Origin: Deltaproteobacteria bacterium
Lineage (GTDB): Bacteria; Desulfobacterota; Desulfobacteria; Desulfobacterales; B30-G6
Assembly: GCA_003647375.1 (NCBI GenBank)
Contig: QMMS01000237.1
Span: 1 to 6,863, forward strand
Direction of reading: 5' to 3'
DNA length: 6,863 nt
Below are positions 1,793 to 6,863 of this stretch, piece after piece. The notes below the pieces were generated by a model. It did no database searches and had not been told where the DNA came from. It saw only the letters and a list, made by a program, of their open reading frames with translations. How positions within the stretch are numbered: position 1 is the stretch's first letter; each line of letters begins with the position of its first letter. The position numbers and the translations under genes are program-made.

Positions 1793-2764
1793 TTAAAGTG
1801 CTAAGTTTCCCAATTGGACAGCACCGCTCCAATGGACGCTACCCGGATCGACACCGGATGTTTTTGCTGCCGATACCAACGCATCGATCTGCTCCTGATC
1901 CAGCAGGGTTTCATCCTGAAACTGCCAGGTCAATCCGAGTCGTTTGTATTTGTCTCTGCAAAGATTATTAAAACTGCAAAGTTCCCATCGTTTGACCTGG
2001 CCGCGCAGATGCCGGGCAATCCAGTTTCCGATACCGCTGATGTTTTTCACAGTGCCCGTGGCGCCCGGCACCAGGGGTGTCCGGATCCAGAGACTCTCCG
2101 GATATAGATGGGTTTCAATATATCGGGAAACGTGCATCAGGTTGTCCAGAATGATCTGGTTGTCGCTTCCAGTAAAGAATTTGTGCCGGGCAGCATCGAT
2201 GTCCTTGATGTCAAAGAGAACCAGGGTCGAATAGGGAAGGAGCCTGTCCAGGGCTTTGGGGCTGCATAAACCACAGGTGTCCAGTGCCGTGTGAATGCCC
2301 TGGGCACGGATTTCTTTTAAAAAATCGGCCACAAAACCGGTCTGTAGAGTGGGTTCTCCGCCGGATACGGTTATCCCGCCACCCGATTTTTCAAAATAGA
2401 CCCGGTCTTTGAGAACTTCATGCACAAGATCTTCTATTGCCCATGGGCGGCCCAATTGTTCCAGGGCGGTGGAGGGACAGGTCTCGACACAGGCACCGCA
2501 GCCATCGCATAAGTTACGATCGATGCAGATACCCTCCGGTGTCAGAGTCAGGGCGCTTTGGGGACATGTGTCGAGACAGGTCTTGCATGCGATACATCGT
2601 GAGTCGATCCAGTGGATCTGGGGTTTGGGTGAAATACTTTCCGGGTTATGGCACCAGGTGCAGGCGAGGCTGCAGCCCTTGAAAAAAACAGTTGTTCGAA
2701 GCCCCGGCCCATCTTCGGTGGACATGCGCTGGATTTCGAGAACGAGGCCGATTTTGTTTTTCAT
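1793..2764 (-). CDS. Glycyl radical enzyme activating protein (radical SAM, PflA/HpdA type with two extra ferredoxin clusters)
   Basis: Activase of 323 residues that reductively cleaves S-adenosylmethionine and abstracts a hydrogen from the glycine of its partner GRE. The radical-SAM motif is C31-x3-C35-x2-C38 (CSLACTWC). A ferredoxin-like insert follows with two complete 4Fe-4S motifs, C57-x2-C60-x2-C63-x3-C67 and C86-x2-C89-x2-C92-x3-C96. The SAM-binding GGE motif is at 135-137 in VSGGEP. This architecture is typical of activases of non-PFL GREs (glycerol dehydratase, choline lyase, 4-hydroxyphenylacetate decarboxylase, benzylsuccinate synthase); PflA itself is shorter and lacks the insert. 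The gene lies 316 bp downstream of the GRE on the same strand, and the pairing is confident. The start fits the family N-terminus (MKNKIGLVLEIQRMSTEDGPG-like), but no Shine-Dalgarno sequence precedes it, so low or unusual translation initiation is possible. Confidence 0.96.
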   Translation of the reverse strand: MKNKIGLVLEIQRMSTEDGPGLRTTVFFKGCSLACTWCHNPESISPKPQIHWIDSRCIACKTCLDTCPQSALTLTPEGICIDRNLCDGCGACVETCPSTALEQLGRPWAIEDLVHEVLKDRVYFEKSGGGITVSGGEPTLQTGFVADFLKEIRAQGIHTALDTCGLCSPKALDRLLPYSTLVLFDIKDIDAARHKFFTGSDNQIILDNLMHVSRYIETHLYPESLWIRTPLVPGATGTVKNISGIGNWIARHLRGQVKRWELCSFNNLCRDKYKRLGLTWQFQDETLLDQEQIDALVSAAKTSGVDPGSVHWSGAVQLGNLAL

Positions 2765-2880: not shown

Positions 2881-3086
2881 TTTTGGTTTGATTGATCGTC
2901 GAGGTTGCCGCAGATACAAGGAAGATGCTGTTTTGCTATAGCCGCCTATGCGTAACGGCATCTGACGCTGTAGGTGCGGTAAGATCGGCGATCCCGAAGG
3001 GTTTTAAATTTTAAAAATAAAATCGATAGAATTCATATATTAAAGATAAAAATATTCATTTAAAATTTGAAACAATCAAACTAAAA
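2881..3086. other. Structured element between GRE and activase: potential three-way junction bounded by a 14-bp inverted repeat
   Basis: Four sets of complementary arms nest without conflict. P1 pairs 2881-2893 with 3074-3086. P2 pairs 2894-2911 with 2976-2993 (14 Watson-Crick pairs, 2 G-T, 2 mismatches) and is extended by an inner hairpin 2923-2931 with 2955-2963. P3 pairs 3001-3015 with 3059-3073. P1 abuts P2 and P3 abuts P1 with no unpaired base; only 2994-3000 links P2 to P3. The five non-Watson-Crick pairs (2885/3082, 2899/2988, 2907/2980, 2929/2957, 3005/3069) are all G-U if the plus strand is the RNA, and A-C mismatches if the minus strand is. P1 overlaps the GRE stop codon (3081-3083) and last codon. 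The element could be a structured RNA, a regulatory mRNA fold, or a small MITE-like insertion with terminal inverted repeats; no target duplication is apparent. Confidence 0.6.
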
Positions 3087-5597
3087 TCGACAGTGGCTGA
3101 CCCTCTCTATCACCTCATCCTGGAGTTCTTTGCCCACGGTCGTAAAATAAGCATTGTACCCGGTAATTCGCACAAGCAGGTGCCGATAATCCATGGGATT
3201 TTTCTGGGCGTCTCTCAGCATTTCCGGATCGAGCATGTTGACCTGGAGTGCCGTGCCGCCGTTTTCTGTATATCCTTTTAAAAAGGCTTTAAACTTTTGC
3301 TTATGTTCCGGATCTTTCAGGATGGACGGGTTGAAGGTTATGGTGTGGCTGGCGCCATTGGGAAGGCAGTTGACATATCCATTGAAATTTCCTTCACCAT
3401 CCAGCGCTTTGCCCCCCAACACTTTTCCCACCGAATTGGCATTGGATGTGGGGCCGTTGATGTCGGCACCATTGGAAGGGCATATGGCATTGGAAAGAAA
3501 CTGCCCTTTTGTTCGGCCGTTGGCACTGGCTGCCATGACATATCCATCACCGGCCCAGTAATTCCAGCTGAGCATGCCGGGTCTGAATTGGCGATGGGTG
3601 GACCGGGTTTTATGCTGCCAGGTTTCCCGGCACCAGAGGTCCATGACCTGTTTTGCCAGGGCATCGGCGGCATCATCGTCCTGACCGTATTTGGGGGCCT
3701 TGTTCCTGGCCATGGCCTGAAGCTTTTCATGACCCTGCCAGTTATTTCTGAGCGCTTGAATGAGTTCAGACATGCTGCAGATCTGTTTGTCGAATACCAG
3801 ATATTTTATAGCGAGAAGGGAATCGACGGTCGTGGCATACGTAACGGCTTCCAGGGTGGTAAAATTGATTTCGGCGCCGCCCTGGGTCACATCCAGGCCC
3901 TTTTCCTCACACCCCTTGACCAGGCAGGACAGGTATGGCGTGGTAAGAAAGTCGGCCCGAACCGATTCAGAGGCTTCGTAGACGCCCACGCTTTTTTCAA
4001 TGATATAAACTGTCTGTTTTTCGTATGAATTCCAAAAGTCTTCAAATGTCTTAAACCCGCTTGCATCGCCGGTTTTGGGGCCATCCTGCTTGATTTTTTC
4101 GGGTGTGCCCTTCATGGGATCGACAAATGGGATCAGGTCTCTGCCCCCGGTCAGGGCGAGCTCAACCGCTTTGAGAAGATTCAGGTTCACATCCACTGTG
4201 CCGGACCGATCATTGCCCACCATGGTATTTTCCAGACAGCCCACCGGTGCGTACTCATGCACGTTTGATTCGTTGATCAGGTGGGTGATGCCGGCCTTCT
4301 TGGCTTCCAGGATCATACCGGCCATGGATCTTTCATCGAAGTTGATCAGAAACGGGGCGCCCTGGCTCCCGGATATCATATCGATGACCTTGTCCAGGAA
4401 GTCGTCCGGCGAATTGCGGTGCAACCGGACATTCGGTTTCGGTTCCAGAATGGGCGTCATTTCATCGATGACCTCAAGGAACATGTAGGTCAGTTCGTTG
4501 GTCATGTCCTTGCCATCTTTTCCCATGCCGGAAAGGGTGAGAAGCTGACCAAAGCCTGCAGTGATGCCCTGATTCCCGTTGCGAATCATGGCGTCGTAGG
4601 CGGTATTGCAGTGGAACCAGAAGCATTTGAGAATTTCTTTTGCAAACTCCCGATTCATGCCCTGACTGCTTGAATATTCCCAATAGGGCAGCAGGTACTG
4701 GTCAATACGCCCGAAGGAAACACCCGGGCCGGGGTAGTTTTCATCACTCATGACGAGCATGTGCGTCAGCCAGAGGGATTGTATGGCTTCCCAGAAGGTC
4801 CTGGCCGGTTCCCAGGGGACTGTTGCAAGGTTTCGAGCCATCTCAGAAAGTTCGGTAGCACGTTCCGGGTCGGTTTCTTCTGTTGCCAGTTGCGCGCAGA
4901 GTCGGGTGTATTGTTCGGCCAGGTCTCCGGGCAGGGTGGCGGCGGTCATCATGGCCTTGAGCTGGCTGCCTTTTTGGCCCTTTTGATTTTGGGGATCTAA
5001 CTGGTTGTAGGAGCTCTCTAACGATTCGTAAATACCCTTCCAGCCGATTTTAAGGGCATGTTCATAACCGGGAATGAGGTGGCCGCTGGTGGCGCCGGCA
5101 TTGCCGTAACCATGGTCATGAAACCATTTCATTTCGGCGCGGGCACCCTTTTTACCTACTACTCGCTGGTCATAGGACTCACGTTCTTTTTTGGTAAAGC
5201 AGGTGGAGGTAATGACATTGAATCTGGCGCCGGCGATGAGATCTCCGGGCAACATCTCCTGGGGGACATGTTTCACCATGACCTCCTTGAGAAACCATGC
5301 CTTTCTTTGGGGCAGGGGCCATGTCCAGAAGTCATCGTGGAGTTCAATATTCCTGGCCGCCTGATGGTAGCCGCCGCCCAGGGTGTCTATGAGCATATAG
5401 ACTTCCGGAACAATATAGTAGGTCATTTCCTGGTACTGCAGGTCCCAGGGGGTACCGGTGGACCAGGCCGTGTACTCGTTGTTCCAGCTTCGTTTGCAGC
5501 CTTGAAAATAGTAGTCTCGCAACCAGGTGATGCGAGGGGAGAGTCTTTGGGGCTCCTTGATGGTGTATTCGGTTTTTTCAGCAAGGGAAACATTCAT
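3081..5597 (-). CDS. Glycyl radical enzyme of the pyruvate formate-lyase superfamily, substrate unassigned (decarboxylase/eliminase type)
   Basis: Catalytic subunit of 838 residues, cytoplasmic and oxygen-sensitive. The glycyl radical loop at the C-terminus is VRITGYNA with Gly813 as the radical site. The catalytic cysteine is Cys454 in PVGCLE, with Glu456 two residues on. A Cys-x-Glu pair is characteristic of dehydratases, C-N and C-S lyases and arylacetate decarboxylases; GCLE in particular is what I recall from 4-hydroxyphenylacetate decarboxylase (HpdB). Other family landmarks are GHLIPGYEHALKIGWKGI (172-189), SFGRIDQYLLPYW (294-306), and NVRLHRNSPDDFL (389-401) before the Cys loop. The N-terminus is rich in aromatic residues (for example FWTWP at 90-94). 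Residues 441-456 match no subfamily I can name with confidence. No HpdC-like or Bss-type small subunit is encoded nearby. An ideal GGAGGA precedes the ATG. Candidate reactions include decarboxylation of an arylacetate (phenylacetate decarboxylase PhdB type), dehydration or sulfonate C-S cleavage; none is proven. Confidence 0.95.
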   Translation of the reverse strand: MNVSLAEKTEYTIKEPQRLSPRITWLRDYYFQGCKRSWNNEYTAWSTGTPWDLQYQEMTYYIVPEVYMLIDTLGGGYHQAARNIELHDDFWTWPLPQRKAWFLKEVMVKHVPQEMLPGDLIAGARFNVITSTCFTKKERESYDQRVVGKKGARAEMKWFHDHGYGNAGATSGHLIPGYEHALKIGWKGIYESLESSYNQLDPQNQKGQKGSQLKAMMTAATLPGDLAEQYTRLCAQLATEETDPERATELSEMARNLATVPWEPARTFWEAIQSLWLTHMLVMSDENYPGPGVSFGRIDQYLLPYWEYSSSQGMNREFAKEILKCFWFHCNTAYDAMIRNGNQGITAGFGQLLTLSGMGKDGKDMTNELTYMFLEVIDEMTPILEPKPNVRLHRNSPDDFLDKVIDMISGSQGAPFLINFDERSMAGMILEAKKAGITHLINESNVHEYAPVGCLENTMVGNDRSGTVDVNLNLLKAVELALTGGRDLIPFVDPMKGTPEKIKQDGPKTGDASGFKTFEDFWNSYEKQTVYIIEKSVGVYEASESVRADFLTTPYLSCLVKGCEEKGLDVTQGGAEINFTTLEAVTYATTVDSLLAIKYLVFDKQICSMSELIQALRNNWQGHEKLQAMARNKAPKYGQDDDAADALAKQVMDLWCRETWQHKTRSTHRQFRPGMLSWNYWAGDGYVMAASANGRTKGQFLSNAICPSNGADINGPTSNANSVGKVLGGKALDGEGNFNGYVNCLPNGASHTITFNPSILKDPEHKQKFKAFLKGYTENGGTALQVNMLDPEMLRDAQKNPMDYRHLLVRITGYNAYFTTVGKELQDEVIERVSHCRF

Positions 5598-6283: not shown

Positions 6284-6565
6284 AAATTTTTGGGATTATA
6301 ACCAATAAAAAGGTAACCCCGAAAGCGGATGGGTGATCCCTGTGCGAAAGTGAAACTGTCTGAGGTCCATAGAGCCCGTTATGCCGAACAGTTTGTAAAT
6401 ATAACCAGATAAACACATCCGGTATTCAAAGTACAAAATTCATTTTAAAGATATGGCCCTGTTCGGCATTACGGTCTCTTGGGAGCGAGTTTTTCACGTT
6501 CGCACAGGGATTATCCATCCGCGGATACCACCAACCTTCTTTTGGGTTATAATCCCGTAAAATTT
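6284..6565. repeat. Large imperfect inverted repeat (foldback element), arms about 105 bp, AT-rich centre of 67 bp
   Basis: The left arm (6284-6391) is repeated in reverse complement as the right arm (6459-6565). Identical blocks: 6292-6303 with 6545-6556 (12 bp), 6325-6332 with 6515-6522 (8 bp), 6336-6348 with 6499-6511 (13 bp), 6350-6355 with 6492-6497 (6 bp), and 6381-6391 with 6459-6469 (11 bp). The outer AAATTTT tract also matches on both sides. Divergent stretches of similar length lie between the blocks. The centre, 6392-6458, is AT-rich and has no gene. This could be a MITE-like palindromic element or two inverted copies of a dispersed 100-bp repeat. No transposase is present. The AT-rich stretch 6192-6283 before it is the upstream region of the PilZ gene; I see no convincing promoter there. 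Confidence 0.8.
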
Positions 6566-6624: not shown

Positions 6625-6772
6625 GATTATGTTAACCCCAACGTTGCAAAAGCCGGAGGGCTTCAGAGCCAAGGCGTCGAGGGTGAAGCTGTAGTCGTTT
6701 ACCGCGAACCCTCGACAACACCGGATCTGATGTCCTCCGGCTTTCCCGTAGGGTAAACAACATGGCAAAATC
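6625..6772. repeat. Second palindromic element: nested hairpin of about 148 bp
   Basis: The core arms are perfect: 6649-6659 (AAAGCCGGAGG) with 6734-6744 (11 bp), and inside them 6676-6684 (GTCGAGGGT) with 6708-6716 (9 bp). Between these, TCAGAGCC on the left matches TCAGATCC (reverse complement of the right) in 7 of 8 positions. Weaker pairing continues outward through ATGTT (6629-6633) with AACAT (6759-6763) and CGATT with AATCG. The loop is about 23 bases (6685-6707). It is GC-rich and differs in sequence from the foldback element next to it. It resembles a REP/BIME-type or stem-loop repeat. No coding frame in it is believable. Confidence 0.7.
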
Positions 6773-6784
6773 GACCCCATCCTT

Positions 6785-6863
6785 CTTGTCCCGTCGTAGC
6801 TCGAAGAGCGAAGTCGGACTTGTCCCGTCGTAGCTCGAAGAGCGAAGTCGGACTTGTCCCGTC
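6785..6863. repeat. 34-bp direct tandem repeat, two full copies and the start of a third
   Basis: Units at 6785-6818 and 6819-6852 are identical, and 6853-6863 repeats the first 11 bases before the window ends. Units begin CTTGTCCCGTCG and each contains the mini-hairpin GCTC-GAA-GAGC. Copies are contiguous with no unique spacers, so this is a minisatellite-like tandem repeat rather than a CRISPR array. Its full length is unknown because the window cuts it. Confidence 0.9.

Follow-up and report, generated by a model that had tools for sequence, protein, structure and literature searches.

In the window (the whole 6,863-nt stretch of DNA that was analysed), the gap between two genes of an enzyme operon is occupied by a member of a family of IS1380-type MITEs. 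The cargo of these MITEs probably folds as the plus single strand, as a putative RNA or ssDNA, and probably serves the element itself. The family has terminal inverted repeats, 5-bp target duplications, dispersed copies and an empty site, and there are IS1380 elements with the same ends, some of them with an exact duplication. Between the ends, the long hairpin P2 co-varies among divergent copies and the pairing of the plus strand is kept, with G.U pairs tolerated and A.C oppositions rarer.

Site and fold of the element

The host operon runs on the minus strand and consists of a GRE gene, an activase gene and an oxidase-like frame, with the element sitting between the first two. The features are the following:

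3081..5597, minus strand: glycyl radical enzyme (GRE) gene, with its stop codon inside the right terminal repeat of the element
1793..2764, minus strand: gene of the GRE-activating radical SAM enzyme (activase), the next operon gene, on the far side of the element
1755-910, minus strand: frame with a weak pyridoxamine-phosphate-oxidase match, third operon member
2882..3085, plus strand (the strand with the conserved fold): decayed IS1380-type MITE copy, recognised by its folds, its dispersed relatives and a 204-nt excess over locus L001
2882..2893, plus strand: left terminal inverted repeat, the 5' arm of P1 (TTTGGTTTGATT, decayed from CCTAARTTGAGC), recognised by the fold and the consensus of 105 other copies
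2894..2993, plus strand: P2, a long imperfect hairpin with conserved plus-strand structure, aligned with 18 diverse copies
2993..3001, plus strand: CCCGAAGGG mini-hairpin at the junction, recognised by the fold, with two C-G pairs kept in 96 and 98 of 105 other copies
3001..3073, plus strand: P3, an AT-rich hairpin, paired, in which the family shows no strand bias
3074..3085, plus strand: right terminal inverted repeat, the 3' arm of P1, recognised by the fold and spanning the GRE stop codon

An initial annotation of this gap had described nested complementary arms at 2881-3086, folded on the plus strand and meeting in a three-way junction. The nested arms are real. When both strands of this segment were folded, the plus strand reached -74.1 kcal/mol (z -8.4; shuffles -40.3 +/- 4.0) and the minus strand -50.0 kcal/mol (z -4.5; shuffles -32.4 +/- 3.9), so that the plus strand is the more stable one; in either case 0 of 200 shuffles was as good. 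The element as such was confirmed, with its true edges at 2882-3085, one base inside on each side. P1, P2 and P3 are all present, and a fourth tiny arm, CCCGAAGGG, makes the junction four-way. As for the wobble positions, which had been counted as five and all G-U on the plus strand, the plus-strand fold indeed contains no A.C mismatch, its 1x1 mismatches being T.T (2933/2953) and A.A (3030/3039); the number of G.U pairs is seven (four in P2, one in P1 and two in P3), and the five were presumably those of P1 and P2. The fold is also beyond chance because the same anatomy recurs elsewhere, in 136 copies with both ends recognisable. In the case of the window copy the ends are decayed, with 8 and 7 of 13 matches, and a target-site duplication is not recognisable.

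Of 13 genome loci compared, the GRE most similar to that of the window (86% identity) is found in L001, which carries no insert at the homologous GRE-activase junction; the sequence there reads CGATTTTAAAAGCAGGGTCCGAGGGG. Between the same flanking words the spacing is 214 nt in the window and 10 nt in L001. This excess of 204 nt equals the length of 2882-3085, and the element is therefore an insertion, as the annotation had considered with its alternative of a MITE-like insertion; inverted repeats, 5-bp duplications and dispersed copies all bear this alternative out. The GRE stop codon, TAG at 3083-3081, lies within the right terminal repeat, which explains the overlap with the GRE 3' end. The plus strand of the window copy is antisense to the operon genes. 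The insertion would have occurred at the last GRE codons, so that the end of the element now supplies the stop and the operon was left whole.

Regarding the host genes themselves, the GRE scores under the curated cut-off for all 12 NCBIfam models matched (best TIGR01774, 397 of 678 bits), and the best 120 homologues listed are all at least 72% identical; it is thus a widespread GRE with unassigned substrate. In locus L007, visual reading of the stretch immediately after 8514 shows an in-frame TAG early in the activase gene (GGCTAGCG), which could mean a pseudogene or a sequencing error. Rfam gave no family match at gathering score in the window, and on four element-bearing loci its matches were far under the gathering scores (E 0.12 to 4.1). 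ARAGORN found no tRNA-like gene.

A dispersed family with changing ends

In near copies the terminal inverted repeats are 12-13 bp long, with CCTAARTTGAGCG and its complement, and at 136 of 170 places each of the two ends has at least 9 of 13 matches. The consensus of the near copies is 208 nt. Pair counts, as given below, use 105 near copies of 198-212 nt; both sets, the 136 and the 105, exclude the window copy. Near-family loci comprise 80 regions fetched from the match places of copy L052, besides automatically retrieved loci.

A target duplication of 5 bp is exact in 40 of the 136 near copies, with an identity of 0.662 compared to 0.360 in the control, and lengths of 2-4 and 6-10 stay near the control. 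In a first, smaller set, 16 of 40 copies had an exact 5-bp duplication. In the divergent set, the duplication is exact in 30 of the 41 copies whose two ends each match at no fewer than 10 of 12 positions. For the divergent set 52 rows were read, which include a few weak ones (e.g. L282 and L284) that may be chance hairpins; 48 distinct P2 sequences were folded, and 41 copies had both ends.

Searching with the window copy (blastn) found copies in 3 of 6 genomes reached via loci of the GRE search, and in 4 of 4 genomes from the G001 family; across the order, 36 of 194 genomes gave copies. With L052 as query, 12 genomes known to be positive gave from at least 1 to at least 40 matches each, with dozens of dispersed copies in some; per-genome copy numbers are lower bounds here, in the window-copy search of the order and in the scans with R1, the covariance model of P2. 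R1 detected copies in 66 of the 194 order genomes and, in a sample drawn from the phylum, in 23 of 395. Many of these follow the same plan with different end and P3 sequences. In divergent copies the terminal repeat varies in its inner half (CCTAAATCCTGC, CCCAAATTATGC, CCTGAATTTTGC, CCTAAACGTTGC), and P3 differs too, yet the two arms of each copy match one another. The annotation had set dispersed copies, as the mark of a mobile element, against an RNA reading. Such copies were found and the element is mobile; a conserved strand-specific fold, described below, coexists with this mobility.

Common element lengths are 124, about 208 and about 255 nt, with no transposase gene inside. The 124-nt short forms (n=5) retain P1 and P2 only. 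In L032, L034 and L046 (genomes G002 and G007) an extra GC-rich hairpin (CCCCGCCGAAGGGCGGGG) lies within the left arm of P2. Still shorter elements, with about 58-150 nt between two terminal repeats, were seen in L194 (3601-3658), L198 (405-471) and G224; some adjoin gene ends, and they are perhaps deletion forms. Neither the window copy nor L052 had a blastn match in plasmids or phages, nor did L052 in E. coli genomes, and an origin from plasmids, phages or E. coli was rejected on these negatives. Viral carriage was likewise rejected, with 0 matches to one exact pattern.

The window itself holds a further member:

6636..6863, plus strand: second member of this superfamily, more diverged, with its left end at 6636-6647 (CCCCAACGTTGC), P2 from 6648, CCCGTAGGG and the start of the P3 region; its right end lies past the window

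R1, in whose training set this copy is not included, matches it at 6648-6752 with 40.7 bits (E 3e-9), and its left end resembles CCTAAACGTTGC of L246. Inside its P3 region, at 6785-6852, are two perfect tandem 34-mers (CTTGTCCCGTCGTAGCTCGAAGAGCGAAGTCGGA), whose 19-base core is shared by 5 of the 372 loci fetched (L014, L034, L140, L142 and L370). Another large inverted-repeat element is found at 6284-6564, with arms 6284-6314/6534-6564, 6325-6355/6492-6522 and 6366-6391/6459-6484; its end motif, GGGATTATAACC, has no exact match in the 372 fetched loci.

Covariation and strand bias of P2

P2 was aligned in 19 diverse sequences, window copy included, and R1 was built from the same alignment; the score of R1 on the window P2, 117.8 bits, is thus that of a sequence used to build it. 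Of 41 pairs, 17 had changed on both sides, compared to a shuffled mean of 6.5. The covariation score was 0.255 (shuffled, 0.147), a value reached by 0 of 500 shuffles, and slid structures gave 0.082 at most. Covariation among relatives, to which the annotation had looked for support of a structured RNA, is consequently present in P2, the relatedness of the copies being partly controlled. For the minus strand, the pair count was 86.0% compared to 94.1% for the plus strand, the covariation score was 0.168, and two-sided changes affected 19 pairs, again more than the shuffled mean (9.3). The minus strand exceeds the shuffles because Watson-Crick compensations serve both strands, and therefore covariation alone does not pick the strand.

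Folding of the plus strand, as the annotation had guessed, gained its family-wide support from wobble pairs. Among the 105 near copies, P2 has 434 cells of G.T type and 52 of A.C type, and P1 has 98 and 25, respectively. P3, which acts as internal control against mutational strand bias, has 109 and 119. It should be added that the copies are related by descent, so that these cell counts for P2 and P3 are not independent events. G.T exceeds A.C in P2 in all 23 genomes represented, and in the outer stem of P3, summed over the represented genomes, the counts are 48 and 42. Energies show the same distinction. RNAalifold on the near copies scored the plus strand at -37.4 and the minus strand at -5.4. 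The minimum free energy of P2 is better on the plus strand for 104 of the 105 near copies and 44 of the 48 divergent ones, the latter count being possibly inflated by the fact that the orientation of divergent copies was set by the plus-trained R1, though the order of P2 on the left and P3 on the right fixes orientation too. In the case of P3 the corresponding counts are 30 of 105 and 17 of 40.

A plain hairpin MITE with a functionless core, whose strand asymmetry is an inherited accident of the ancestral sequence, could produce part of this pattern, since 225 of the 434 wobble cells of P2 sit at three positions where a wobble is the commonest pair; the weak bias among private changes (next section) also speaks for it. 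However, at the other 36 P2 positions, where the commonest pair is Watson-Crick, the asymmetry persists with 209 G.T and 51 A.C cells (22 positions for, 8 against, 6 tied), and P3 in the same copies is without bias, with 99 and 118 under the same exclusion rule. Moreover, the 17 P2 pairs that change on both sides between lineages stay paired, and the energy bias appears also in divergent copies of other sequence. A functionless core is therefore unlikely in our judgement.

Variation in the internal loops of P2 is coupled as well. Among the 105 near copies, columns 40-41/83-84 are GA/GA in 69 and GC/AA in 26, columns 22-23/102-103 are GG/GA in 68 and GT/AA in 14, and columns 32-33/92-93 are GA/GA in 39 and GC/GA in 38. 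The GA/GA loops may correspond to tandem G.A pairs. Altogether, the plus-strand fold of the P2 core has been kept by evolution, which suggests a role of the plus strand in single-stranded form.

Level of selection and position relative to genes

Changes private to one copy within its genome were counted in 84 copies of 8 genomes. In P2, 39 of them led from Watson-Crick to G.T and 23 from Watson-Crick to A.C (p 0.056), while C>T and G>A changes were equal in number (31 each). There is thus no sign of mutational strand bias, and selection after insertion appears weak. Because the bias of private changes is small, the strong asymmetry arises between copy lineages and not in fresh changes of inserted copies, which would fit a selection of source copies for spreading.

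To describe the surroundings of the copies, any plain open frame with 100 codons or more was counted as a flanking gene. Both flanking genes are in sense orientation for 28 near and 5 divergent copies, and both are antisense for 37 near and 13 divergent copies. In such operon-like settings, antisense (50) is thus slightly more frequent than sense (33; p 0.08). Copy orientation is not biased towards the mRNA sense, and a role in host mRNAs is not supported.

Alternatively, antisense copies would be carried in operon mRNAs as the minus strand, and selection would weaken the hairpin of that strand by A.C mismatches in place of strengthening the plus strand. The slight antisense excess, the weaker minus fold and the antisense position of the window copy agree with such an avoidance. 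Yet avoidance would not by itself maintain compensatory pairs, and it should appear in private changes, where the bias is small. We hold this explanation to be improbable.

Element right ends adjoin genes more often than left ends, and this was observed for both gene directions in the 136 near copies. Right ends lie within 30 nt of a gene in 30 of 66 cases for sense and 44 of 62 for antisense genes; for left ends the counts are 14 of 75 and 25 of 51 in the two gene directions. When an antisense gene is at the right of a near copy, its stop falls between -12 and +6 relative to the element end in 36 of 62 cases, and the GRE stop in the right repeat of the window copy thus matches a family habit. 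TTGAAA occurs within the last 25 nt of 74 of 136 copies. An outward hybrid -35/-10 promoter at the right end was considered and rejected, as -10-like hexamers at spacings of 16, 17 and 18 were seen in 0, 0 and 1 of these 74 copies.

The clustering before start codons raised a host 5'UTR function as a candidate, and the orientation counts downgraded it. More generally, the plus strand could serve the host in cis, within untranslated regions (5' or 3') of adjacent mRNAs, as a leader, processing site or attenuator. The 30 of 66 right ends just upstream of sense start codons are what such a role would predict, but copies antisense to both genes are at least as frequent as sense copies, right ends are found at the stops of antisense genes too, and private changes are nearly balanced. 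A host-serving RNA of this kind is accordingly very improbable. Lastly, that the element is a lone antisense regulatory RNA dedicated to the GRE gene, as the annotation had proposed from the plus-strand fold and the overlap with the GRE 3' end, can hardly be maintained, given the dispersed copies in the order, zero R1 matches in GRE loci L001-L008, the empty junction of L001, and the promoter-like matches near the element (3, compared to 1.1 in shuffles, SD 1.1), which all lie right of P2 and would therefore not transcribe it.

IS1380-family elements as candidate mobilisers

The ends of the MITEs, which we take to be of the IS1380 kind, motivated a search with PF13701 (IS1380-family transposase). 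Of the 194 order genomes, 75 have a match, 56 of them over the cut-off. Among 26 element-bearing genomes, 10 have a PF13701 match and 16 have none. A MITE and its helper are often separated, as is usual for MITEs.

Four PF13701 loci share 13-base ends of the CCTAARTTGAGCG type with the MITEs. L346 has the ends CCTGAATTGAGCG/CCTAAATTGAGCG with TGATA flanking both sides, and L349 has CCTAAATTGAGCG/CCTAAGCTAAGCG with ATAAT flanking both sides; L354 and L358 have CCTAAGTTGAGCG/CCTAAATTGAGCG and no clear duplication (3 of 5 and 1 of 5 bases). L361 carries CCTGAATTTTGCA at both ends and TTATA on both sides, which fits the CCTGAATTTTGC type of genome G059. Four of the five IS elements displayed begin CCTAARTTGAGCGA. 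Other PF13701 loci carry different ends, e.g. CCTGAATCCGTGA and CCTAAAACAAGCG.

In two genomes the IS and the MITEs have ends of the same kind: in G435, the IS at L313 has CCCGGATTATGC/CCCAAATTATGC and a broken transposase gene, and in G545, the IS at L308 has the end CCCAAATTATGC and a transposase gene cut by the contig end. The genomes with CCTAARTTGAGCG-ended IS (G118, G076, G069 and G056) contain one R1 match in all, in G076. G128 shows a mismatch, with CCTGAATTTTGC ends on the IS (L310) and MITEs of the CCTAARTTGAGCG type. A scan of 26 PF13701 loci with R1 turned up no P2, and therefore P2 looks like cargo rather than a piece of an IS end. In the tabulated data of PMC3281130 (Table 2), IS1247 of the IS1380 family is given as 1672 bp, with IR 16/13 and DR 5. 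IS1380-family insertion sequences are thus the likely mobilisers of these MITEs.

Other candidates were tried and rejected. In the case of IS4/IS5-type transposases (PF01609), none of 22 loci had a pair of MITE-type ends round the gene. Autonomous copies were sought between widely spaced repeat pairs in 17 + 20 regions, and no transposase was recognised among the frames judged by eye.

Proposed mode of spreading

According to the reading that we prefer, an IS1380 transposase acting in trans would have moved the element. The plus strand of P2 would then work single-stranded, most likely as RNA or alternatively as ssDNA during mobilisation. Selection would act mainly on active source copies, through their ability to spread, and not so much on individual insertions or the adjoining host gene.

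A bolder and distinctly tentative version is that of an "RNA-assisted MITE". These would be phylum-wide, protein-free DNA transposons whose sole cargo is a strand-specific folded RNA needed for spread; the IS1380 transposase would cut, and the P2 RNA, perhaps via a host RNA-binding protein, would give targeting, stability or protection.

Comparison with known systems

Bacterial MITEs are a well-known class and are usually seen as ends round leftover sequence. The family described here has freely changing ends and P3, but one strand retains its core fold throughout a wide group.

In a review of bacterial MITEs, among them the Correia element, QMITEs and Chunjie, stable predicted folds of their transcripts are reported (PMC10969869). 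The sRNAs Cbsr3, Cbsr13 and Cbsr16 of Coxiella burnetii derive from QMITEs according to the same source, and MITE-borne RNA as such is therefore not new. As described there, these elements have several properties in common with our family, namely a length of 100-260 nt, inverted repeats, target duplications, lack of a transposase, AT-rich insertion places and stable predicted transcripts. IS1380 is mentioned at 0 places in the review text. The Chunjie MITE of Geobacter uraniireducens, according to the same review, is 235 bp long; its other copies measure 178 to 235 bp, and one lies in an operon. By description its size and operon placement are similar, and it is possibly a relative. In Thiomargarita, the dsrA group I intron holds a long-hairpin MITE that also forms part of a structured RNA (PMC4853749); terminal TATAG repeats and the intron host set it apart by description from our family.

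IS1380-family insertion sequences have the ends (CCTAARTTGAGCG and the others) and the 5-bp duplication in common with the MITEs, and they differ in that the MITEs are without a transposase gene and the IS loci (26 PF13701 loci, searched with R1) without P2. Rfam families share with P2 a conserved structure suited to a covariance model, and none of them matches at gathering score. In the literature searched, mostly without subscription papers and judged by listings and the opening lines of abstracts, the matches listed include no IS1380-type MITE of sulfate reducers and no strand-specific conservation in a bacterial MITE; as evidence of novelty this is weak.

A strong "structured RNA" signal in an intergenic region of these bacteria should be viewed with caution, as it may be a mobile element, and for one common kind of intergenic repeat our analysis points to IS1380 as a likely mobiliser. 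In contrast to the bacterial MITEs covered by the passages considered in PMC10969869, where strand-specific conservation is not seen, the core here covaries widely and keeps the fold of one strand. What appears to be new is thus a MITE with strand-specific conservation of its core fold, whose nature as RNA is putative, and this makes it testable whether a non-coding, protein-free transposon can carry its own functional single-stranded structure.
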